A DNA stretch of 56,921 nt from an uncultured Verrucomicrobiota bacterium (GTDB taxonomy: Bacteria; Verrucomicrobiota; Kiritimatiellia; Kiritimatiellales; Tichowtungiaceae): NCBI GenBank assembly GCA_903826865.1, contig CAIKGD010000060.1:1-56921 (forward strand), written 5' to 3'. The position numbers and the translations under genes are program-made. The notes below the pieces were generated by a model, which was not told where the DNA came from, ran no database searches, and saw only the letters and a list, made by a program, of their open reading frames with translations. Every line of letters starts with the position of its first letter. The first letter of the stretch is position 1. Shown here in pieces: positions 4,491 through 36,177 of this stretch.

Positions 4491-5806
4491 TGTGCTACGC
4501 GCTTCCAGGTGTTGTGACAGAGATTAACGGTCGCAACGCCGTAATCAGCTACTTCGGCGAAATCCGTTCGGCGCTCTGTGAACTCACCAATGTTCAGCCC
4601 GGCGACTACGTCTATGCGCAGGGCGGGTATGTGATCGAAAAAGTCGATCCCGACTTCGCCCGCGAAATGCTCGATACCTGGAACGAACTGTTTCTGGTTT
4701 TGCAGGAGCGCGATACCGCGATGTCGGCGCGGCCCGCGCCGGAACCGGCCGACCGCCCGCTCCAGGATAGTCTCGATCAGGCCGGCGCCGGCCTGCCGAT
4801 CTCCCGCGATGAGCTGCGTTATCTGCTGACCATCGATGAGCCGGACCGCCTTGAACGGCTCTACCGCACCGCGAACGCCGTTCGGCATCTGCATCACCGC
4901 AACTCATGCTGCGTGCATGGCATTCTTGAAATTTCAAACTACTGCGCCAGCGACTGTCTTTACTGCGGTCTGGCGGCCAACTCCACGCTGACCCGGCGCT
5001 ACCGGATGACCCGCGACGAAATTCTCGAAGCGGCCAAGGAAGCGATTGAAGGCTTCGGCTTTAAATCGCTGGTGCTCCAGTCCGGCGAAGATCCGGCTTA
5101 CACTCCGGCGTTTCTGGCGGAAATTGTCGCCGAGATTAAACGGCTACACGGCGTCTTTATCTGCGTCAGCTTCGGCGAAGTCGGCCTCGACGGCTTGGAT
5201 ATGCTTTACGAAGCCGGAGCCCGCGCTCTGCTCATGCGATTTGAAACATCGGATGCCAAACTTTACGCCGCGCTCCATCCCGGCGACACGCTGGAAGACC
5301 GCCTGAGCCATCTGCGCCACGCGCTCAAGACCGGCTGGCTGACCGTGACCGGCGGACTGATCGGTCTGCCCGGCCAGACGGTTGATTCACTCGCCGACGA
5401 CATTCTGCTGGCCGGTGAACTGAATGCCGAAATGTTCAGCTTCGGCCCGGTGCTGGCGAGTCACCGTCGTCGTGACATTGTTCCCGCCACTGAATCGCAG
5501 ATGCTTCGTGCACTGGCCGCCGCCCGGATTGCCGCGCCGCCGCAGGCCAAAGTACTTGTCACCACCGCTTTTGAAACGCTTTCACCGAACGCCCGTGAAC
5601 GCGGACTGATGGCGGGTGCCAGCTCGGTCATGCTGAATGTCACGCCGCTCCGTTACCGCGCTGACTATGCGATCTACGATGGCCGTGCTCACGCTGACGA
5701 AAGTATCGCCGATCAGACCCGCGCCATCATCAAATTGCTGGACCGCCTCGGCCGCGCTCCCAGCGACCTCGGCGTTGCCACGCCTTCGCTATCAAAGCTT
5801 GGGTAG
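4490..5806 (+). CDS. HypC-like domain fused to HydE-like radical SAM maturase
   Basis: The start at 4490 gives a HypC-like N-terminus, MCYALPG, with the conserved Cys2. In the HypC signature the usual VHxGF is here AQGGYVI, so the His that with Cys2 binds the Fe(CN)2CO unit in E. coli HypC is replaced by Gln44. From about residue 120 a radical SAM protein of the HydE/BioB type follows, with the CX3CX2C cluster C152-C156-C159 (CASDCLYCG), VLQSGEDPAYTP and GLPGQTVDSL. HydE builds the [FeFe] H-cluster dithiolate, and an [FeFe] hydrogenase lies 8 kb away. However, the segment SFGPVLASHRRRD differs from canonical HydE, so a HydE paralogue with another role is possible. It is coupled to hypA by TGATG. 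The last 60 bp are duplicated downstream (6404-6465). Confidence 0.8.
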   Translation: MCYALPGVVTEINGRNAVISYFGEIRSALCELTNVQPGDYVYAQGGYVIEKVDPDFAREMLDTWNELFLVLQERDTAMSARPAPEPADRPLQDSLDQAGAGLPISRDELRYLLTIDEPDRLERLYRTANAVRHLHHRNSCCVHGILEISNYCASDCLYCGLAANSTLTRRYRMTRDEILEAAKEAIEGFGFKSLVLQSGEDPAYTPAFLAEIVAEIKRLHGVFICVSFGEVGLDGLDMLYEAGARALLMRFETSDAKLYAALHPGDTLEDRLSHLRHALKTGWLTVTGGLIGLPGQTVDSLADDILLAGELNAEMFSFGPVLASHRRRDIVPATESQMLRALAAARIAAPPQAKVLVTTAFETLSPNARERGLMAGASSVMLNVTPLRYRADYAIYDGRAHADESIADQTRAIIKLLDRLGRAPSDLGVATPSLSKLG

Positions 5807-5809
5807 GGG
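5748..5809 (+). repeat. Gene-tail direct repeat, copy 1 (end of hypC-hydE)
   Basis: A 62-bp segment covering the last codons (GRAPSDLGVATPSLSKLG) and stop of the HypC-HydE gene. It recurs at 6404-6465 with no gaps and 7 substitutions, six of them synonymous in the gene's frame. The two copies bracket the ParE/antitoxin pair. Confidence 0.92.
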
Positions 5810-5848
5810 GACTCAGGCACTGAGGCACAAAGGCACAGAGTTTTTCGG

Positions 5849-6142
5849 TCAGTAAATTTCGGGAATTCCTCTGGCGGAATGCCAGATACGGATAATCTCG
5901 ATGTTATTTCGATTTACGCGATAAACAATCCGGCAAGGTCGCCTGATCACCTCGCGAATCTGTTCATCCCGCAGTTCAGGAACAATTCGTCCGCTGAGCG
6001 GGAAGTCAGCAAGGTGCTCAACGGCATCAAAGAGCGATGAAACAAAACGTCTGGCGATCTCCGGGCTGTCGAGTGATATGTAATCCCGCAAATCCATTAG
6101 ATCCCAGCGGGCGGATGGGGACCAGATTATTTGGAAAGCCAT
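5849..6142 (-). CDS. ParE/RelE-family toxin
   Basis: A 97-residue protein with the ParE pattern: IIWSPSARWDLMDLRDYIS near the N-terminus, FPLSGRIVPEL in the middle and CRIVYRVNRNNIEIIRIWH near the C-terminus. These toxins act on gyrase (ParE) or ribosome-bound mRNA (RelE); sequence alone does not settle which. Its start overlaps the upstream antitoxin stop by 16 bp, the usual coupled order of antitoxin then toxin. It is convergent with the ech operon and sits between the two tail repeats. Confidence 0.85.
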   Translation of the reverse strand: MAFQIIWSPSARWDLMDLRDYISLDSPEIARRFVSSLFDAVEHLADFPLSGRIVPELRDEQIREVIRRPCRIVYRVNRNNIEIIRIWHSARGIPEIY

Positions 6143-6312
6143 TCCGCGAACTCCTCTTTAACCACGCTGTGCGCAATGCCTTCGCTGCGGTCGAGCTCAC
6201 AAAGTCCTTTGCGCAGACCGGCCGCGAAGTGGATGCGTTCTTCAATCTGCATCCAGTCGGCGCTGTCCGGCAGGCGGCTGATGGTCTGGATCGCTAGTTC
6301 TTTAGTTGTCAT
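6127..6312 (-). CDS. Antitoxin partner of the ParE-like toxin
   Basis: A 61-residue acidic small protein (MTTKELAIQTISRLPD...) with the pattern ADWMQIEERIHFAAGLRKGL and a KEEFAEWLSK end. It is typical of short antitoxins paired with ParE/RelE. I chose ATG at 6312 because GGAGGGG lies 6 bases upstream, whereas the earlier in-frame ATG at 6327 would overlap that site. The 16-bp overlap with the toxin supports co-translation. Confidence 0.75.
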   Translation of the reverse strand: MTTKELAIQTISRLPDSADWMQIEERIHFAAGLRKGLCELDRSEGIAHSVVKEEFAEWLSK

Positions 6313-6403
6313 CGGAAACCCCTCCATTAAAGCGGCAGTATCTTAGCATATGTGTTTTCGGAGCGAAAAGTTTCAATTTCCAGAACGGGGCGCAGACAAA
6401 TTA

Positions 6404-6465
6404 TCGGCCGCGCTCCCAGCGACCTCGGTGTCGCCATGCCGTCGCTTTCCAAACTTGGGTAGGGG
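6404..6465 (+). repeat. Gene-tail direct repeat, copy 2 (displaced hydE-like gene end)
   Basis: The second copy, offset exactly 656 bp from copy 1. It still reads GRAPSDLGVAMPSLSKLG followed by TAG. Differences from copy 1 are at third positions except one T-to-M change. It has no start or upstream coding part and is a relic of another allele's 3' end. Confidence 0.9.
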
Positions 6466-6560
6466 AAGATGTCGGACACTATAGAGTTTCGGCGAAGACC
6501 GATATTCGGTAAAAATGCCGAAACAATAGAATCTATACCAAACATTCCTTTTGCCTTTTC

Positions 6561-7364
6561 TCATTTGAGGCGAATCGACCGAACGAACTCCGCATATCTG
6601 CTGTCGAGTTGACCAAATAACGACTCGGATACTGCGACTGTGCCGGTAAAAAACTTTCCGCGTGCGACCAACACGTAGCCCTTTTTCATCACTTTGAGAC
6701 CATCAAAGTCCGCAGACATCAGATATTCGATTCCTTTTAATCCTTGACGTCCGATAGAAATCTCCTTGGTAGAAATCACTTTTCCTCCTCTCAAGTAACT
6801 TATCGCGTTCGCATCGACGAAGAGGCGCAATGCCGTGGTTTCTTCTTCAGGGCGGATACAAATAGAGCGGCCATCCTTCCGCTCTAGAATACTGACCGCA
6901 TAAATAATCGTCTGATTATCTTTTACTGTAACTGACTGATAGCTGGTTCCAACCATTGAGTCCAAATCGAGGCTTATTTCTTGAACTGTAGATGGGAATT
7001 CAGCCGAAAAGCCGTGCTCTATATTTTCGAATGCGACTGCTGACGCTGAAAAGGGAATCATCAAATTAATAATGAGGTATACTACTATCGGGTTTTCAAT
7101 GACAAAGCCTCGGACACCAAGTTTGCTGGACGATTTTTGTATATTCCACATCGGCAAATAGCCAAAAAATGTAGTGGCCACTGCTGTTGTTATTGTTAGC
7201 AGTTTAGTCCAGTAATTCTGTTGCTCGCCGAAAAATATGCTGGCCGATCCAAACGCATGACCCATCCGAGTCATATCAAATTCATTCATATATGGTGATA
7301 TTTTTCCGCTGGCGTTGCTCTCAATCTGCGGATTCATTTGATGCTCTTTCGGTTCCTTATTCAT
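6561..7364 (-). CDS. Hypothetical membrane-anchored protein
   Basis: Not recognised. From the ATG at 7364 it would be 267 residues; an earlier in-frame ATG at 7424 has no better support. It shows one hydrophobic segment (LLTITTAVATTFFGY), then a second (YLIINLMIPFSASAVAFE) that looks like a signal peptide or anchor. A soluble domain of about 150 residues follows, ending MSADFDGLKVMKKGYVLVARG and FVRSIRLK. The true start could be closer to the second hydrophobic segment. The region is visibly richer in A+T than its neighbours and lies between a duplicated gene tail and a gene remnant, so acquisition by transfer is likely. Confidence 0.45.
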   Translation of the reverse strand: MNKEPKEHQMNPQIESNASGKISPYMNEFDMTRMGHAFGSASIFFGEQQNYWTKLLTITTAVATTFFGYLPMWNIQKSSSKLGVRGFVIENPIVVYLIINLMIPFSASAVAFENIEHGFSAEFPSTVQEISLDLDSMVGTSYQSVTVKDNQTIIYAVSILERKDGRSICIRPEEETTALRLFVDANAISYLRGGKVISTKEISIGRQGLKGIEYLMSADFDGLKVMKKGYVLVARGKFFTGTVAVSESLFGQLDSRYAEFVRSIRLK

Positions 7365-7414
7365 TGCTAATCTACTTTCATTAACGCCAGCAACGAGCAT
7401 TGACCCGATGTGGG

Positions 7415-7609
7415 TCAATGGCACGGTTCGCCTTCCGCAGTGACCAGCGACTTGTCATAGATACCGACAGGACTTCGTTTTGGGAATCGCTGCGCCGTGT
7501 TTGTTAGGAGTTGCAATGCGGGCTGATTAGGCTCAATGAGGTAGAAACACTCAGGGATAATGTGTGCCTTCACGCCCCGTCCATATTTTCCTGTTAGCTT
7601 GCAGATCAT
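7415..7609 (-). pseudogene. 5' remnant of an HNH-like family gene (tentative)
   Basis: Sixty-four codons starting MICKLTGKYGRGVKAHIIPECF and containing RSPVGIYDKSLVTAEGE. From memory this resembles the N-terminus of small HNH-nuclease-like proteins with a Cys-containing start and an AHIIP motif. Coding stops soon after EGE, where that family would continue for more than 100 residues. It is probably a truncated gene. The family assignment is weak. Confidence 0.35.
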
Positions 7610-8155
7610 ATTTTTCTGGCGAACATAGTATTACCAATCTTTTAGGAAGGATTTCGATTTCGGAAACTAAAACAACACCTGATTCCCATTTTCAACCCGA
7701 AGTCCTTACTAGTTTCTTCCGAATCACAGCCGACATGGCCGCCGGAATTGCGGTGACTATAGCGTTTGAAAGAGTTGCGGGAAGAAAAAAGGCGAAGAAT
7801 GACGGAGAATGGAACCGTTTCCGCTTTCAGCTACGCCTCGTCAAGCTGGTGGAATGATGGGGCAGGGGGCGTTGTTCCAAAAGGTAGGGCGCGACCGCAG
7901 TTCGGCAAGCTCACCGGAACCCGGGCGCGCCGCCAGTCCTGTGTGGCGGACGGCTTGGCGATCCGTCCCTACCCAGAGACGCGGAGGTTTTGGCGGCTTT
8001 GCGTCTTGGCGAGAGATTTCTGGAACTATGTGCCTTTGCCCCTATGTGCCTTTGTCCCTGTTTCACCTTTGCCCTCGGAGTCCAAAAATGGTTTACAACA
8101 CTCCGGCCCGCCAGTATAACCGTGCGCTCCAATCAGTAAAAACCGGAAACTTTCT
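7610..8155. other. Gene-free stretch with degenerate repeats
   Basis: I see no convincing gene. A plus-strand reading frame up to 7857 ends FRFQLRLVKLVE but begins inside the antisense of the remnant and matches nothing I know. The rest holds a GGTAGGG/CCCTACC repeat (7883-7973) and low-information text such as tatgtgcctttgccc (about 8028-8060) that recurs in other gaps (5816-5840, 35616-35690). The promoter of the ion transporter at 8156 must lie in the last part. Confidence 0.6.
7883..7973. repeat. GGTAGGG...CCCTACC intergenic repeat, copy A
   Basis: It begins ggtagggcgcgaccg and ends gatccgtccctacc, so the ends are inverted repeats. The right part (ggcggacggcttggcgatcc) matches the elements at 42257-42323 and 45362-45415 almost exactly. 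REP-like. Confidence 0.85.
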
Positions 8156-9433
8156 ATGACCAAAGAGTGGATCAGTCTGGCCGTATTTGTCCTTTGCTAT
8201 GCGCTGTTCGTCTTCCTGCCGGGGAAACGTTCCTGGGTCGCTTGCACCGGAGGCGCTCTTCTGGTCGCAACCGGCGTGCTGACGTGGCAGGACGCATTTT
8301 TTACCAAGATCAGCTGGAATGTCATGGGCCTGTTTTTCGGCACCTTGATTCTGGCCGAGATTTTTATGATTTCCCGCGTTCCGGCGGTTATGGCCGAATG
8401 GCTGGTGGATAAGGCCAAAAGCACACGCGTCGCCATGCTGATCCTTTGTGCTCTTTCGGGTGTCATTTCCATGTTCGTGGAAAATGTCGCCGTGGTGCTT
8501 CTGCTGGCGCCGGTTGCCATAAGTCTGGCCGACAAACTGAAAGTCAGTCCCGTGCCGCTGCTGATCGGTATTGCCGTCAGCAGCAATCTGCAAGGTACGG
8601 CGACGATGATCGGCGATCCGCCGAGTATGATTCTGGCTGGCTATATGCGCATGGGCTTCTGGGATTTCTTCGTGTATCAGGGACGGCTTGGCATTTTCTT
8701 CGCAGTCCAGATCGGCGCGGTCGCTTCACTGCTGGTGCTGGCGCTGGTATTCCGCCAGCACCGCACGAAATCGGTTTTGCTGGCGCAGGAGACCGCCCGT
8801 TCCTGGGTTCCGGCCTCGTTGCTGGGTCTGCTGGTTATCGGACTCTCCTTTGCCACGCTGTTCGATCCTGAATTCGCGTGGTTTGCCGGCACCTACACCC
8901 TGATTCTCGGCGCGGTGGCTTTGGTCTGGTTCCGCGGGATCGCACGCTGGGGCAGTTTGCGCAAGCTGGCCGGGACGCTCGATTGGGACACGACGTTTTT
9001 CCTGATCGGTATCTTTGTGCTGGTGGGCGGCCTGAGTGATTCCGGCTGGATGGACAAGCTGGCGACCGGCATGTCCGGCTGGGTCGGTTCCAACGCGGCG
9101 CTGGCGTTTACGGTCATCGTGCTGTTTTCAGTTCTGGTGTCCGGATTTGTGGACAACGTGCCGTTCCTGCTGGTCATGATTCCGGTGGCTCAGAAAGTGG
9201 CCGACCAGATCGGTGCGCCGGTTCCGCTGCTCATGTTCGGCCTGCTGATCGGCGCCTGCCTCGGCGGGAACCTGACGCCGATCGGCGCATCCGCCAATGT
9301 CGTCACGCTCGGCATTCTGAAAAAACGCGGGTATGCTGTCGGCTTTAAAGAGTTTATGCGGATTGGAATTCCCTTCACCGTGGCGGCGGTTCTTTCCGCC
9401 TGTGCTTTTGTCTGGTGGGTGTGGGGCGTATAG
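8156..9433 (+). CDS. ArsB/NhaD-superfamily (ion transporter) membrane permease
   Basis: A 425-residue protein with about 11-12 hydrophobic helices. It carries the superfamily signatures SSNLQGTATMIGDPPSMI (residues ~142-159) and, in the second half, ACLGGNLTPIGASANVV, giving the two-repeat fold of ArsB, NhaD and DASS carriers. MFVENVAVVLLLAPVA and GFVDNVPFLLVMIPVA form the paired helix-entry loops. The substrate cannot be fixed: Na+/H+ exchange, arsenite or a dicarboxylate are all possible. There is no ars gene nearby. It is followed after 29 bases by a DUF502 gene, probably co-transcribed. Confidence 0.85.
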   Translation: MTKEWISLAVFVLCYALFVFLPGKRSWVACTGGALLVATGVLTWQDAFFTKISWNVMGLFFGTLILAEIFMISRVPAVMAEWLVDKAKSTRVAMLILCALSGVISMFVENVAVVLLLAPVAISLADKLKVSPVPLLIGIAVSSNLQGTATMIGDPPSMILAGYMRMGFWDFFVYQGRLGIFFAVQIGAVASLLVLALVFRQHRTKSVLLAQETARSWVPASLLGLLVIGLSFATLFDPEFAWFAGTYTLILGAVALVWFRGIARWGSLRKLAGTLDWDTTFFLIGIFVLVGGLSDSGWMDKLATGMSGWVGSNAALAFTVIVLFSVLVSGFVDNVPFLLVMIPVAQKVADQIGAPVPLLMFGLLIGACLGGNLTPIGASANVVTLGILKKRGYAVGFKEFMRIGIPFTVAAVLSACAFVWWVWGV

Positions 9434-13962: not shown

Positions 13963-16900
13963 TCGCTCCCGCCGTAAAAATTATTTCGTCTGTCAAAGAA
14001 CTGCGTAAACTTCCGCAGGAACACACCGCGCCCAAAGGCGTAAAACAGATTCTGGTCTGCGCCGGCGGCGGCTGTCTCGCCTCCGGTTCAGATAAAGTCA
14101 TCGCCGCTTTGCGCGACGAAGTTCTCAAGCAGAAACTGGCCGGCAAAGTGAACGTGACCGCCGTCGGCTGCATGGGACTTTGCGCCGAGGGACCCGTCAT
14201 GCTGATGGTCGACGATATGACCTTCTATCAGCGTGTAAAGCCGGAGGACGCCGCTGAAATCATCAAAAAACACGCGGTCGGCGGAAAAGTGATCGACCGG
14301 CTGGTCGCCCGCGATGCCAAAGGCGGACAGGCCGTCGCCTGTATTGACGACATCGACTTCTTCAAAAAGCAGACCAAAATTGTTTTGCGTCACTGCGGAC
14401 GGATTGATCCCGAAAGCATGGATGAGGCACTCGCCGCCGGCATTTATCAGGCGCTCGGCAAAGTCCTCGACGGCATGACTGCTGACGACGTGATTAAAGA
14501 GATGAAAGGTTCCGGACTGCGCGGTCGCGGCGGCGCGGGCTTCCCGACCTGGATGAAGTGGAACTTCACCCGCCAGACACCTGCCGACCAGCGTTATATG
14601 CTTTGCAACGCCGACGAGGGCGATCCCGGCGCTTACATGGATCGCAGCGTGCTCGAAGGCGATCCCCACAGTCTGATCGAAGGAATGATCATCGGCGCGT
14701 ATGCGATCGGCGCTTCGCAGGGCTATGTCTACGTGCGCGCCGAATATCCGCTGGCTGTCGCCCGCCTGCAGAAGGCGATTGATGATGCCAATGCGCACGG
14801 ACTGCTCGGCGCTAACATTCTCGGCAGCGGTTTTTCCTTCAATCTCGAAATCCGCATGGGCTCCGGTGCCTTTGTCTGCGGTGAAGAAACCGCGCTGATG
14901 GCTTCCATCGAAGGCAAGCGCGGCGAGCCGCGTCCGCGTCCGCCGTTCCCGGCGCAGAAGGGGCTGTGGGGCAAGCCGACCGTTCTCAACAACGTCGAAA
15001 CGTTCGCCAACGTGCCTGCCATTATTTCCAAAGGCGCGGCGTGGTACGCTTCGTACGGTACCGAAAAGAGCAAGGGAACAAAAGTTTTCGCGCTGGCCGG
15101 TGCGGTGCGCAATACCGGGCTGGTCGAAGTACCCGTCGGCACGCCGCTCGGTGAACTGATCTACGACATCGGCGGCGGCATTGTGAACAACAAGCCGTTC
15201 AAGGCCGCGCAGCTCGGCGGCCCGTCCGGCGGCTGTATTCCGCGCCAGCATCTCAATGTGCCGCTCGACTACGAATCGCTCAGCGAACTCGGCGCCATCA
15301 TGGGGTCGGGCGGACTGATCGTTATGGACGACGACGCCTGCATGGTGGATGTCGCCCGTTTCTTCATCGAATTTGTGCAGGAGGAATCCTGCGGCAAATG
15401 CGTGCCGTGCCGCGTCGGCACCAAGCGTATGCTCGAAATTCTCACCCGCATCTGCGAAGGGCATGGACGCATGGATGACATCGACCGACTGATTGAACTG
15501 GGCGAATTCATCAAGCAGGGCTCGCTCTGCGGGCTGGGGCAGACCGCGCCCAATCCGGTGCTTTCGACCATCCGCCACTTCCGCGAAGAATACGTCGAAC
15601 ATATCCGCGACCGCCACTGCCGCGCGGGCGTCTGCCCGTCACTGGTGCGCGCGCCGTGCCAGACGGCCTGTCCGGCCGGCGTGGATATTCCCGGCTTTGT
15701 TTCGCTGGTCGGCGAAAAGCGCTACGACGAAGCGCTCAAGCTGCACCGCAACCGCAATCCGTTCGCCAGTGTCTGCGCGCGCGTCTGCTTCCATACCTGC
15801 GAAGAGAAATGCCGCCGCTCCACGCTCGATAACTCCGTATCCATTCGCGGCATCAAACGCTTCATGGTGGATCAGGAAAATGAAATGCAGCTGCCGGAAG
15901 TCCGCGAAAGCGCGGAAAATGCCGCAAAGAAAATCGCGATTATCGGCGGCGGCCCCGCCGGGATTTCATGCGCCTTTTTCCTCGCGCGCCTCGGCTACAA
16001 GCCGGTTGTCTTTGAAAAAGAACCGCGCCCGGGCGGCATGCTGATGCAGGCGATTCCAGCCTACCGCCTGCCGCGCGAAACGCTCGCCCGTGAAATCCGC
16101 ATGATTGAAAACATGGGCGTGAAAATTAAAACCGGCAAGGCGCTCGGAAAAGATTTCACCATCCGGAGTCTGCGCGATGACGGTTTTGAGGCGGTCTTTG
16201 TCGGTATCGGCGCGCCGGAAGGAATTCGTGTAGAGCTGCCCGGCAGTGACGCGAAGGGCGTGGCGGATGCCATGGCTTTCCTGCGCGAATACAATATCCG
16301 CGGCTCGGTGCCGGTCGGCAAGAAAGTGGTTGTCATCGGCGGCGGCAACGCCGCGATTGACGCCGCGCGCTCGGCGATCCGCCTCGGCGCGGGTTCAGTG
16401 ACGGTACTATACCGCCGCACACGCGAAGAGATGCCCGCCTATGCTGAAGAGATTGAAGAAGCGATTCAGGAGGGTGTAGCGATTGAAGCGCTGACGGCAC
16501 CCAAAGAAATTGTGTCCGCTAAAGGCAAAGTGACCGGCGTGAAATGTCTCCACATGCATCTGGGCGAATTCGACCGTTCCGGACGCCGCCGCCCTGAAGC
16601 GGACCAGGACGAAACGTTTATTGTTGCCGCTGATCAGGTCATCATGGCGGTCGGCCAGACACTTGACGGTTCGGTTTTCGGCGGCGCGCTGGCGCTCGAT
16701 GACCGCGGCTGGGTCAAAGCCGATCCGGTTACCGGAAAAACCTCGCTTGAAGGCGTTTTTGCCGGCGGCGATTCCGTTACCGGTCCGATGTCCGTGGTTC
16801 ACGCAATCGGTGACGGTGAACGCGCGGCGGTCGGCATTGATCAGCTGCTGAGCGGAACCAAGCACGCTTTCTGGCGCGTCGAGCAGGAAAACACCACTGA

Positions 16901-22666: not shown

Positions 22667-22764
22667 ACCCACCCCGTCTGTCACTTCGTTCCAGCCACCC
22701 CTCCCGTGGATGGGAGCTTTAATAATCTCCTCCTTCGGAGGGGTGCCCGAAGGGCGGGGTGGGT
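22667..22764. repeat. ACCCACCCCG...CGGGGTGGGT palindromic repeat, copy 1
   Basis: 98 bp with 10-bp perfect terminal inverted repeats and an inner pair (CACCCCTCC ... GGAGGGGTG) with AGCTTTAATAAT in the middle. Similar copies lie at 24159-24246 and 25072-25169. MITE- or REP-like. The rest of this 274-base gap shows no gene. Confidence 0.92.
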
Positions 22765-22877
22765 TTGGACATCATGACGTTTCAATCGGTATCCGTCCTA
22801 ATGTTCGCGAATAGACAGGCTGGAAAAATCGGTTAATTCAGGCTGTTGCATTAGAGTTTATTTGTGTTCATTCGCGG

Positions 22878-24158: not shown

Positions 24159-24246
24159 ACCCACCCCGCCGTCCCGGCACCCCTCCGCCGGAGAGGATTT
24201 TAAAAGCTCCCCTCCTATGGAGGGGTGGCCAAAGGCCGGGGTGGGT
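24159..24246. repeat. ACCCACCCCG...CGGGGTGGGT palindromic repeat, copy 2
   Basis: 88 bp; same ends as copy 1, inner CACCCCTCC and GGAGGGGTG arms around TTTTAAAAGC. The middle differs from copies 1 and 3 while the arms stay complementary. Confidence 0.92.
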
Positions 24247-24255
24247 TGCGACTTT

Positions 24256-25071: not shown

Positions 25072-25169
25072 ACCCACCCCGTCCGTCGTTTCACTCCGGC
25101 CACCCCTCCGGGTGAGGAGAGCTTTTTAATCCCCTCCATCGGAGGGGTGCCCGGCAGGGCGGGGTGGGT
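25072..25169. repeat. ACCCACCCCG...CGGGGTGGGT palindromic repeat, copy 3
   Basis: 98 bp, most like copy 1 (shares CACCCCTCC, GAGAGCTTTTTAAT and the GGAGGGGTGCCCG arm). It ends 3 bases before the nitroreductase stop codon. Confidence 0.92.
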
Positions 25170-25172
25170 TGG

Positions 25173-25691
25173 TTATTTCCACTTTTCGTGCCGGACCAGT
25201 TTTTCGAGCGGTTGACGGATTTTCGGCCGGCCTTTTTCGTTCGGGTGGCCGAGCGTCAGCAGGACGACCGGTTCAACCGTGCGCGGTACGCCGAGCGCCT
25301 TGCGGACAATTTTCGGATCGAACGCGCCGACCCAGCAGGTGCCGAGTCCGAGATCGGCGGCAGCCAGTGTCATGTGGTCGGCGGCAATCGCGGCATCCAC
25401 ATCAACGAGACAGCGGTCATCGTGGCGCGATCGTTTCCAGGCTTTGGAAGGCATCGTGCAGACGGCGATAACGACCGGCGCTTCGGCAAACCACGGGGCC
25501 GGATAGCCGGCGGCCAGTGCGGCGAGATTTTCTTTTTGGCGGACAACCACAAACTGGAACGGCTGAAGGTTGCACGCCGTCGGCGCGAGCCGCCCGGCCT
25601 CCAGCACTTCATTGAGCTGTTCATCGGAAACCGGTTCCGGTTTATATGAACGGATGCTGACGCGCTTTTTTGCCAATTCGATGAATTTCAT
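25173..25691 (-). CDS. Nitroreductase-family FMN oxidoreductase
   Basis: A 172-residue protein. It begins MKFIELAKKRVSIRSYKPEPV, the usual FMN-binding R-S-x-R start, followed by RLAPTACNLQPFQFVVV and AAADLGLGTCWVGAF, the second FMN region. An NAD(P)H-dependent, probably homodimeric, enzyme reducing quinones, flavins or nitro compounds; the physiological substrate is unknown. It is slightly short for the family. Confidence 0.88.
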   Translation of the reverse strand: MKFIELAKKRVSIRSYKPEPVSDEQLNEVLEAGRLAPTACNLQPFQFVVVRQKENLAALAAGYPAPWFAEAPVVIAVCTMPSKAWKRSRHDDRCLVDVDAAIAADHMTLAAADLGLGTCWVGAFDPKIVRKALGVPRTVEPVVLLTLGHPNEKGRPKIRQPLEKLVRHEKWK

Positions 25692-33973: not shown

Positions 33974-34040
33974 GCCACAAAAAACACGATAACTCACAAA
34001 AAAGAACATCTGTTTTCGTGAAATTTGTGTTTTTTGTGGC
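33974..34040. repeat. Long inverted repeat gccacaaaaaacac ... gtgttttttgtggc
   Basis: Perfect 14-bp arms at 33974-33987 and 34027-34040 with 39 bases between, in the gap before thiF. A hairpin-forming dispersed element rather than a terminator, as no T tract follows. Confidence 0.85.
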
Positions 34041-34069
34041 TATTGAACCGTGATTGGAAGCAATGGGTT

Positions 34070-34876
34070 ATGTTGAAAATAAAGCTCAATGAAAGGCTGG
34101 TCGAAACCGACGCGAAAACACTTTTTGCGCTGCGCGACCGCGTTAAGCCGGGAGCGGATGTCGTTATCCTGAACGGCGCGGCGATGAATGCCGACGCGCC
34201 GCTGGCCGACGGTGACGCGGTTTGCTTTATCAAACGGGGCGAAGCGCCCTCGGCGGACGAACTGGAGGCACTGATGGCTTCGCGCCACACGCCCGGCGTC
34301 CATGCCAAAGTCAAAGCCGCTACGGTCGGCATCGCCGGTCTCGGCGGACTCGGCTCGGCGATTGCCATCGCGCTGGCGCGCGTCGGTATCGGCCGGCTGA
34401 TTCTGGCCGACTTTGACGTGGTGGAGCCGAGCAATCTCAACCGCCAGCAGTATTTCGTTGATCAGATCGGTCTGTTGAAAACCGATGCGCTGGTTGCCAA
34501 TCTCCGGAAAATCAATCCCTACGTCGTGGTCGAGTCACACGCCGTAAAACTGACACCCGATAACATTCTTCCGATGTTCGCAAATGTGGACGTCATGATT
34601 GAAGCCTTTGACCGTGCCGACCAGAAAGCGATGCTCATGCAGGCGTTCACGGCGCAGAAACCGGATGTACCGTTTATCGGCGCCTCCGGCCTTGCCGGTT
34701 TCGGACCGGAAGAAACCATCGGCGTCAAAAAAATGGGACGCAGCATTTACATTGTCGGCGATCTGAAAACCGGCGCGCGGCCCGGCTGCGGCCTGATGGC
34801 TCCTCGCGTCGGCATCGCCGCCCACATGCAGGCTAATTTGGCATTAAGGCTGATTGTGGAAAAAGGAGAATCTTGA
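34070..34876 (+). CDS. thiF: ThiS-like domain fused to ThiF (sulfur-carrier adenylyltransferase)
   Basis: A 268-residue protein. Residues 1-60 form a beta-grasp ThiS-like domain (MLKIKLNERLVETDAKTLFAL). It is internal, so it has no free GG tail. From ~85 comes the E1-like domain with GIAGLGGLGSAIAIALARVG, DFDVVEPSNLNRQQYF (Mg-ATP site) and ASGLAGFGPEETI. It adenylates ThiS for thiazole synthesis and belongs to the ThiF family 2 type of anaerobes. No other thi gene is nearby. The last 66 bp before the final codons are repeated downstream at 35442-35507, bracketing a two-gene module. Confidence 0.88.
   Translation: MLKIKLNERLVETDAKTLFALRDRVKPGADVVILNGAAMNADAPLADGDAVCFIKRGEAPSADELEALMASRHTPGVHAKVKAATVGIAGLGGLGSAIAIALARVGIGRLILADFDVVEPSNLNRQQYFVDQIGLLKTDALVANLRKINPYVVVESHAVKLTPDNILPMFANVDVMIEAFDRADQKAMLMQAFTAQKPDVPFIGASGLAGFGPEETIGVKKMGRSIYIVGDLKTGARPGCGLMAPRVGIAAHMQANLALRLIVEKGES
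34796..34861 (+). repeat. Gene-tail direct repeat, copy 1 (end of thiF)
   Basis: Encodes MAPRVGIAAHMQANLALRLI and VE. It recurs at 35442-35507 with no gaps and 7 substitutions, all synonymous in the thiF frame. In copy 1 the gene ends VEKGES. Confidence 0.93.
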
Positions 34877-34906: not shown

Positions 34907-35152
34907 ATGCCAACAGTTTTCCGATGGAATGGTTACCGGTTTTTCTTCTTTTCGAATGAAGGTGTGCCCCGTGAACCAATGCACATTCATGTCCGCAAAG
35001 GAGAAAAGCTTGCCAAGTTCCGGCTGGAGCCGGACATACAGTTGGCGATGAATTACGGAATGACATCCGCTGACGTCAGGCAGTTGATTGAGGTGATTGA
35101 GCAGAATGCAGAAGAATTCCGGAGGGCATGGAATGAAAACTTTGAACTCTGA
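34907..35152 (+). CDS. DUF4160 protein (toxin-antitoxin-like module)
   Basis: An 81-residue DUF4160 protein with MPTVFRWNGYRFFFFSNEG, the EPMHIHVRKG motif and KFRLEPDIQLAMNYG. These genes are nearly always followed by a DUF2442 gene and behave like a toxin-antitoxin module; the activity is not established. It overlaps the DUF2442 start by 20 bases. RBS CGGGGA lies upstream. Sits within the thiF tail duplication. Confidence 0.88.
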   Translation: MPTVFRWNGYRFFFFSNEGVPREPMHIHVRKGEKLAKFRLEPDIQLAMNYGMTSADVRQLIEVIEQNAEEFRRAWNENFEL

Positions 35153-35432
35153 TCCGTTGGCCGAAAAGGTGACGTTTGATGGCGACGACATGATTGTTGC
35201 CTTGAAAGACGGACGTAAACTCAGTGTGCCGCTGGCTTACTTCCCGCGACTGCTTCATGCATCCATTGATGCGCTTAAAAAATACACTCTGAGCGGTGGA
35301 GGAATTGGAATCCATTGGGATGATCTGGATGAGGATATCTGTGTTGAAGGTCTGCTGATGGGGATTAGCGATCGCACGGCTCATTCCCATCTTGCCGTTG
35401 CCGAAAATACTGAACATTACCGCACGAAGTAA
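35133..35432 (+). CDS. DUF2442 protein, partner of DUF4160
   Basis: A 99-residue protein with VTFDGDDMIVALKDGRKLSV, the PLAYFPRLLHAS motif and GIGIHWDDLDEDICVEGLL, all hallmarks of DUF2442. Presumed partner (possibly antitoxin or DNA-binding) of the preceding DUF4160. ATG 35133 follows GGAGGGC. The stop lies 9 bases before the displaced thiF tail copy. Confidence 0.88.
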   Translation: MKTLNSDPLAEKVTFDGDDMIVALKDGRKLSVPLAYFPRLLHASIDALKKYTLSGGGIGIHWDDLDEDICVEGLLMGISDRTAHSHLAVAENTEHYRTK

Positions 35433-35441
35433 TACGGTTCT

Positions 35442-35507
35442 ATGGCTCCGCGCGTCGGCATCGCCGCCCACATGCAGGCCAATCTGGCGTTGCGGTTGAT
35501 TGTGGAA
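35442..35507 (+). repeat. Gene-tail direct repeat, copy 2 (displaced thiF end)
   Basis: Offset 646 bp from copy 1. It still reads MAPRVGIAAHMQANLALRLI, VE, then G and TGA. The differing last codons show that it is the end of a different thiF allele, not a recent copy of the neighbour. Confidence 0.92.
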
Positions 35508-35514
35508 GGCTGAT

Positions 35515-35829: not shown

Positions 35830-36177
35830 ATGAAGCACATGAAATTCAAATGTTTTGCGACCAAGTTTGATAAAATACCCACGTATACATTTTCCATCAA
35901 AGTAGCTAATCTTATAAAAATAAGCTATGTGGCTGTCCGTGGTGTGGACCACGAGGAGGGTGCTGTTCAGCGTGTTTTAAGTAAGCATCGTATTGCAGAT
36001 ATAAAAGAGTATATCCAGAAAGGTAATCTTTTTTTTAATTCCTTTATCATAAACTGGACGGACAAAAATTATAGCCCTCTTATCGAAAATGATTACATAT
36101 CTATTCCTTTGATCGATTCGGGGGCTCAAGTTATTGATGGCCAGCATCGCTTAACCGTTGTGATGCCGTTATACTGA
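35830..36177 (+). pseudogene. N-terminal remnant of a DGQHR/DndB-like protein
   Basis: 115 codons ending in a partial catalytic-type motif, GAQVIDGQHRL, the DGQHR signature of DndB-related proteins linked to DNA phosphorothioation and other defence islands. Full proteins run 300 or more residues. Here the frame ends seven codons after the motif (TVVMPLY), 4 bases before a GGAGGG/CCCTCC repeat. It looks truncated, with the rest lost at the repeat. It is clearly A+T-rich compared with its neighbours, so probably acquired. No dnd genes remain. Confidence 0.65.

Follow-up and report, generated by a model that had tools for sequence, protein, structure and literature searches.

At least five unrelated host genes carry a short accessory segment after their stop codon, and behind that segment the last 47-95 bp of the gene recur in a form that differs from the in-gene tail mainly at synonymous sites. 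The arrangement was first noted behind a hydE-like gene in the 56,921-nucleotide stretch of DNA analysed here (the window), in a reading of its letters without database searches (the sequence-only reading); the finding is real and recurrent, and partly as that reading had it. The in-gene and displaced tails appear to be distinct functional lineages, and the best explanation, to which we give an even chance, is one-sided homologous insertion anchored on the gene tail of a congener and acting on housekeeping genes, a mechanism that we infer from the sequences.

A ParE module between two diverged hydE tails

The window corresponds to contig C60 in a genome (G000) of 2.64 Mb and 88 contigs; other G numbers denote the genus genomes with which it was compared. 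A repeat search of the window returned exactly the gap-free pair of the sequence-only reading, the hydE tail at 5748-5809 recurring at 6404-6465 (62 nt, 55/62 identical, spacing 656; Table 1). The seven differences (GGC/GGT, GTT/GTC, ACG/ATG, CCT/CCG, CTA/CTT, TCA/TCC and AAG/AAA) were likewise reproduced codon by codon: six are synonymous and one (ACG/ATG) changes T to M, with the stop present in both copies. A chance repeat was ruled out by the self-BLAST E value of the pair (2e-14) and by zero inverted matches in the scan described below, and an assembly artefact by G008, a genome of long contigs in which the same ParE module lies between two diverged tails of its own.

The host gene joins PF01455 to a radical SAM domain (PF04055), and its best NCBIfam match is TIGR03956 HydE (E 6e-64), below the cut-off of that model. 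Among the other genus members compared, only three (G005, G008 and G013) have this HypC-HydE fusion at ~95% amino-acid identity, and a scan of contigs found two more distant hydE loci without the cassette. The description of the insert as a ParE/antitoxin cassette held for the toxin, which comes from a known family, as expected of a type II toxin-antitoxin system (PF05016, E 8.7e-21); its 66-aa partner is a candidate antitoxin, so named from position and overlap only, for which Pfam, NCBIfam, PADLOC and the PDB gave neither a family nor a structure. DNA homologous to the 66-aa gene occurs at other loci in G012 and partly in G007; the ParE-module homologs of G012 were set aside, being partial copies at unrelated loci. 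Plasmid searches for the toxins returned distant relatives only. A dispersed AGGCACAAAGGCACAGAG-type repeat flanks the hydE insert region in inverted orientation (5808-5842 and 8024-8058).

Table 1 Features of the tail-plus-cargo loci; positions refer to the window
Feature	Position	Strand	Evidence or remark
hydE host gene, HypC-HydE fusion, 438 aa	4490..5806	+	PF01455, PF04055; 95% aa orthologs in G005, G008, G013
In-gene hydE tail copy, 62 bp including stop and 3 bp beyond	5748..5809	+	55/62 identical to 6404-6465
ParE-family toxin, 97 aa	5849..6142	-	PF05016 E 8.7e-21; 94% aa in G008, same locus
Candidate antitoxin, 66 aa, overlapping toxin start by 16 nt	6127..6327	-	position and overlap
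Displaced second hydE tail	6404..6465	+	55/62 identical to in-gene copy; orthologous copy in G008
Second cargo segment behind hydE	6466..8081	.	missing in G013, differs in G008 and G005
287-aa ORF in second hydE cargo segment	6561-7424	-	no Pfam match
thiF host gene, ThiF-type adenylyltransferase with ThiS-like N-terminus	34025..34876	+	PF00899, PF14453; NF006395 above cut-off
In-gene thiF tail, 66 bp	34796..34861	+	whole-window repeat scan
DUF4160 protein, 81 aa, putative toxin	34907..35152	+	PF13711 E 6e-18; weak NCBIfam match to toxin DhiT
DUF2442 protein, 99 aa, putative antitoxin, overlapping DUF4160 gene	35133..35432	+	PF10387 E 3e-22
Displaced thiF tail with own stop (VEG*)	35442..35514	+	59/66 identical to 34796-34861
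rluA (RluA-family pseudouridine synthase), G008			cargo: REP-associated tyrosine transposase, NF047646 E 9e-12, below cut-off
rluA (RluA-family pseudouridine synthase), G000			cargo: Bro-N-like fragment
PHP-domain gene, G000			cargo: two LamG genes
MGDG-synthase-type glycosyltransferase, G000			cargo ~270 bp

The hydE site differs between related genomes

In G008, a second species, the ParE module is 89% identical at the DNA level to that of the window and its two tails are 64/70 identical, while the segment after the second tail differs. The site is empty in G013: the gene ends CTTGGCTGA, and the CitMHS/ArsB type gene found at 8156 in the window follows ~0.2 kb further on. G005 has a third kind of cargo after a hydE tail ending CTTGGGTAGGGGA, and another of its contigs begins in a tail ending CTTGGCTGA. 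The spot downstream of hydE thus holds different cargo from species to species. Common to the inserts are the ending of the tail and a brief trailer (TAGGGRARGATCAGGC-like), the latter less well kept in G000. The in-gene tail of G005 lies on contig C166 and its native-type tail at the very start of C153; the two contigs are identical over the first 123 bp, and each of the four differences ahead of the tail end falls at a third position. This two-contig case was left out of the counts below, as a strain mixture is possible.

The sequence-only reading had predicted that the displaced tail would match genomes with an empty site, and here the result was reversed: over 53 bp, the in-gene tail of G000 differs from G013 at 3 positions and the displaced tail at 5, with 5 differences also between the displaced tails of G000 and G008. 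The two G000 copies differ from each other at 7 of these positions and are not each other's closest relatives, so the outcome that would have counted against the sequence-only reading did not arise. Both copies in both G000 and G008 end GGGTAGGG, unlike the GGCTGA of G013 and of G005 contig C153, and the in-gene copy is the nearer to G013; for these reasons the original chromosomal end is probably not the copy at 6404, which more likely came in as the tail of a previous insertion. The arrangement is probably older than the split between G000 and G008, and two successive insertions, with the original end lost, would fit best.

Two smaller features were seen around this site. G013 carries ~290 bp extra immediately upstream of its hydE gene relative to the window (L080 7707-8001). 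A short segment (GCCGGAATTGCGGTGACTATAGCG...GTTGCGGGAAG; window 7733-7785) is kept behind the differing cargo of G000, G008 and G005 and is missing in G013; it is possibly an old promoter region or an element end.

A second case in the same window

The thiF tail at 34796-34861 recurs at 35442-35507 with a spacing of 646, and all seven differences between the copies (59/66 identical) are synonymous. Between them lie the genes for a DUF4160 and a DUF2442 protein, a putative toxin-antitoxin pair (PF13711/PF10387); gene pairs of this kind sit together on plasmids. Orthologs of thiF were found in 12 other genus genomes, in which the module had no match, nor does it lie behind thiF in any of the 11 with a readable gene end. 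The insert is independent of the hydE case and, among the genus genomes compared, private to G000.

Comparison of the in-gene and displaced tails with that of G013 yields shared-state counts of 4:3:4, a three-way star, and the tails would therefore have split at about the time when the species did. The displaced branch carries 3-4 synonymous and 0 nonsynonymous changes, where a copy that had been non-coding since the split should show 9-12 amino-acid changes; the lack of nonsynonymous change has a P of about 1e-5 to 1e-2 under neutral decay, depending on the model. Behind this insert lies a truncated DndB-like ORF (35830-36177, 115 aa, PF14072).

Displaced gene ends recur with varied cargo

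We searched the last 105 bp of each gene plus 15 bp against the next 4 kb for 1541 predicted genes (~1.83 Mb) from four genomes (G000, 0.82 Mb; G008, 0.61 Mb; G009 and G023, 0.2 Mb each), using gene starts searched upstream, gene middles and inverted copies as controls. Inverted copies gave no match in the whole sample. Gene starts yielded only repeat families, lipoyl-type domain genes and low-complexity matches, nothing comparable to the tail pairs, and gene middles, in one of the scans, gave no match apart from repetition of whole genes or whole arrays. With such whole-gene and array repeats removed, clear tail-plus-cargo loci were hydE (G000, G008), thiF (G000), rluA (G008, G000), and a PHP-domain and a glycosyltransferase gene (both G000), with displaced copies beginning 47-95 bp upstream of the stop. 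There was no clear case in G009 (0.2 Mb), G013 (0.38 Mb) or G023 (0.2 Mb), samples too small to claim a difference; the absence from the G013 sample is not significant. Candidates set aside were L104, L105, L111, L114, L130, L155 and others, in which the gene middle is also repeated or the gene is long and repetitive, as well as L124 (EF-hand-like repeats), L116 and L140 (intergenic repeats), L204 and L206, which are unrelated. The VF530 gene of G008 has a tail pair of 75 bp at 84% identity (L134:14188-14262 and 14348-14422) that we treat as a weak case given its near-tandem spacing of 160-166 bp; it was counted in the between-copy tally and left out of the polarised counts. The same gene also has a near-tandem duplication at its start (L134:13604-13923; 154 bp, 85%).

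A pair of tails around an insert resembles attL and attR at a gene end, and at hydE different cargos start shortly after the same tail and short trailer, as might be left by site-specific integration at gene 3' ends if the attachment site restored the gene end and the recombinase had since been lost or acted in trans. Prophages that integrate in icd use a gene end in this way, the element supplying a near-synonymous replacement of the gene's last bases. The loci described here share with such prophages and islands the nearly synonymous replacement end, but they differ in having unrelated targets, cargo of ~0.3-2 kb and no recombinase found in the inserts read. Neither an integrase nor a common core site was noted in the inserts read at hydE, thiF, rluA, PHP and glycosyltransferase, nor any integrase beside the tails in the stretches read; five unrelated tails lacking an evident common core would each need a lost recombinase of their own, and we consider site-specific integration improbable.

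Displaced tails appear to have diverged as coding sequence

Across eight copy pairs, VF530 included, the differences between copies comprise 38 synonymous and 13 nonsynonymous changes. Taken by itself, this count does not reject a harsher null that places half of the differences on a constrained in-gene copy (P 0.06-0.08). Polarising the changes is the stronger test: over six locus/genome pairs, the displaced branch received 17 synonymous and 8 nonsynonymous changes and the in-gene branch 16 and 5. A neutral displaced copy would be expected to show ~26-29% synonymous change, and the observed 17:8 gives a P of about 1e-5 to 4e-4 for synonymous fractions of 0.26-0.33, and of 6e-5 to 4e-4 for fractions of 0.29-0.33; as polarisation followed the majority of three relatives, two loci were counted in two genomes and the alignments span ~60 bp, these P values are soft, whereas their direction is not. 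Both copies would therefore have been functional gene ends for most of their separate history, which in general bears out the sequence-only claim that both tails once ended functional genes, and such a bias is easier to reconcile with imported tails than with copied targets.

The opposing account is insertion with a long target duplication, in which a staggered break copied ~50-95 bp of the host gene and the copies, identical at first, later diverged with only the in-gene copy under selection. Restriction-modification units are described as inserting with target duplications that vary in length around the order of 100 bp (PMC3874152), the lengths seen here fall in a narrow range (47-95 bp), and the two PHP copies are sisters. 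A displaced copy made in this way should nevertheless decay neutrally, against which stand both the 17:8 ratio, compared with ~27% synonymous change expected (P ~1e-4), and the thiF displaced branch free of nonsynonymous change. We regard target duplication as somewhat unlikely.

Which of the two copies is foreign

At rluA, insert-free relatives (G013, G005 and G012) end ...DDM(Q/R)QLL..., an ending found also in the displaced tails of both G008 and G000. The in-gene tails of these two genomes instead end ...DDMQ(L/R)KIFSL*, after which come an identical ~20 bp and then differing cargo; the KIFSL* ending is non-native. At the glycosyltransferase gene, compared by eye, the displaced tail is somewhat nearer the sole relative, G006. 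The two PHP tails group together as sisters when compared with other species, and the displaced copy encodes an altered C-terminus. Empty sites occur in G013 at hydE, in other genus genomes at thiF, and in G013, G005 and G012 at rluA. A foreign in-gene and a native displaced copy would thus hold at rluA and lean that way at the glycosyltransferase, with thiF and PHP undecided, and the pattern fails at hydE of G000. The proposal that the module came with a foreign gene tail and pushed the old one downstream accordingly fared well at rluA, where the displaced copy has the insert-free C-terminus, and not at hydE of G000, where the in-gene copy is the nearer to G013.

A further alternative, in which the gene end underwent ordinary tandem duplication and an unrelated insertion later separated the copies, needs no special machinery, and the weak VF530 locus, with its spacing of 160-166 bp, resembles a near-tandem duplication. 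It does not sit well with the non-native in-gene C-terminus at rluA, with the synonymous excess that the displaced branches show here too, or with recurrence together with complete cargo at several loci, and we hold it to be very unlikely.

A proposed insertion anchored on a congener's gene tail

The one-sided insertion that we favour would proceed as follows. Donor DNA from a related species would carry that species' version of the gene end together with the genes behind it, and would pair by homology with the resident gene end on one side only, its other end being joined without homology inside the last ~50-95 bp of the resident gene. The host gene would then read into an incoming, functionally equivalent tail, with the cargo next and the resident tail left behind as a non-coding remnant; repeated rounds would stack units, as at hydE. 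Toxin-antitoxin modules would make favoured cargo, since their loss carries a penalty and the insertion leaves the host gene intact.

Support for import comes from rluA, where displaced tails match insert-free relatives and the differing in-gene tails are common to G000 and G008 before different cargo; from the presence of repeat and cassette in two species, the second independent case at thiF and the further rluA, PHP and glycosyltransferase loci; and from published precedent for one-sided homology in the displacement of T6SS effector and rhs tails (PMC5361080). Against it, no displaced copy begins more than 95 bp before the stop, a narrower range than random illegitimate joins predict, and longer copies would have been detected; at hydE the empty-site species is closer to the in-gene than to the displaced tail; the PHP tails are sisters, with the displaced C-terminus changed at the protein level; and among the genomes compared there was no donor carrying both the in-gene tail and the cassette. 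ComEC is present in 14/14 genus genomes, which is compatible with DNA uptake and is not evidence of competence; it occurs in poorly transformable species too.

Homology-facilitated illegitimate recombination, in which homology on one side is combined with an illegitimate join, has been proposed for serial displacement of T6SS effectors and for immunity-gene arrays of V. cholerae (PMC5361080), and the same one-sided mechanism for displacement of rhs C-termini (Jackson 2009, as cited in PMC5361080). As these rhs, CdiA-CT and T6SS effector systems are presented there, they are like the present loci in that a new gene end arrives with an accessory gene and pushes the old end, or immunity gene, downstream, with units stacking and homology proposed on one side only; they differ in that their new tail is a different toxin, whereas here the host is a housekeeping gene, the tail encodes nearly the same residues and the cargo is a toxin-antitoxin module, a RAYT or something else. 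Restriction-modification units (Nobusato 2000 and Furuta 2010, as summarised in PMC3874152) are likewise small selfish two-gene units, lying between direct target repeats on the order of 100 bp, but the repeats here are ~8-15% diverged, mainly synonymously, and concentrated at gene 3' ends. The present loci combine the displacement logic of the former with the repeat length of the latter.

These observations bear on the transposase-free movement of small chromosomal toxin-antitoxin modules. A displaced, synonymously diverged tail is a readable scar of arrival that can mark the insertion, suggest the donor lineage and be searched for in any genome set, and the length limit of ~95 bp, if it holds, constrains the recombination mechanism. 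A bolder reading, which we think unlikely, is a recurrent route of cassette mobility not bound to any one integrase, in which housekeeping gene ends would serve as exchangeable docking sites and cassettes would carry a species-specific synonymous tail of ~50-95 bp, insert before the resident tail, and stack or swap cargo; if true, five sites in ~0.8 Mb of G000 would correspond to some fifteen per genome.

Other features of the window

A hydrogenase/complex-I small-subunit-like gene at 1433-2338 runs in frame into an apparent GNAT acetyltransferase domain, and alignments to G008, G013, G005 and two MAGs of more distant relation span the whole fused region. An 81-bp GC-rich family of imperfect intergenic repeats, REP-like and with inverted copies, lies at 22690-22770, 24172-24252 and 25095-25175.
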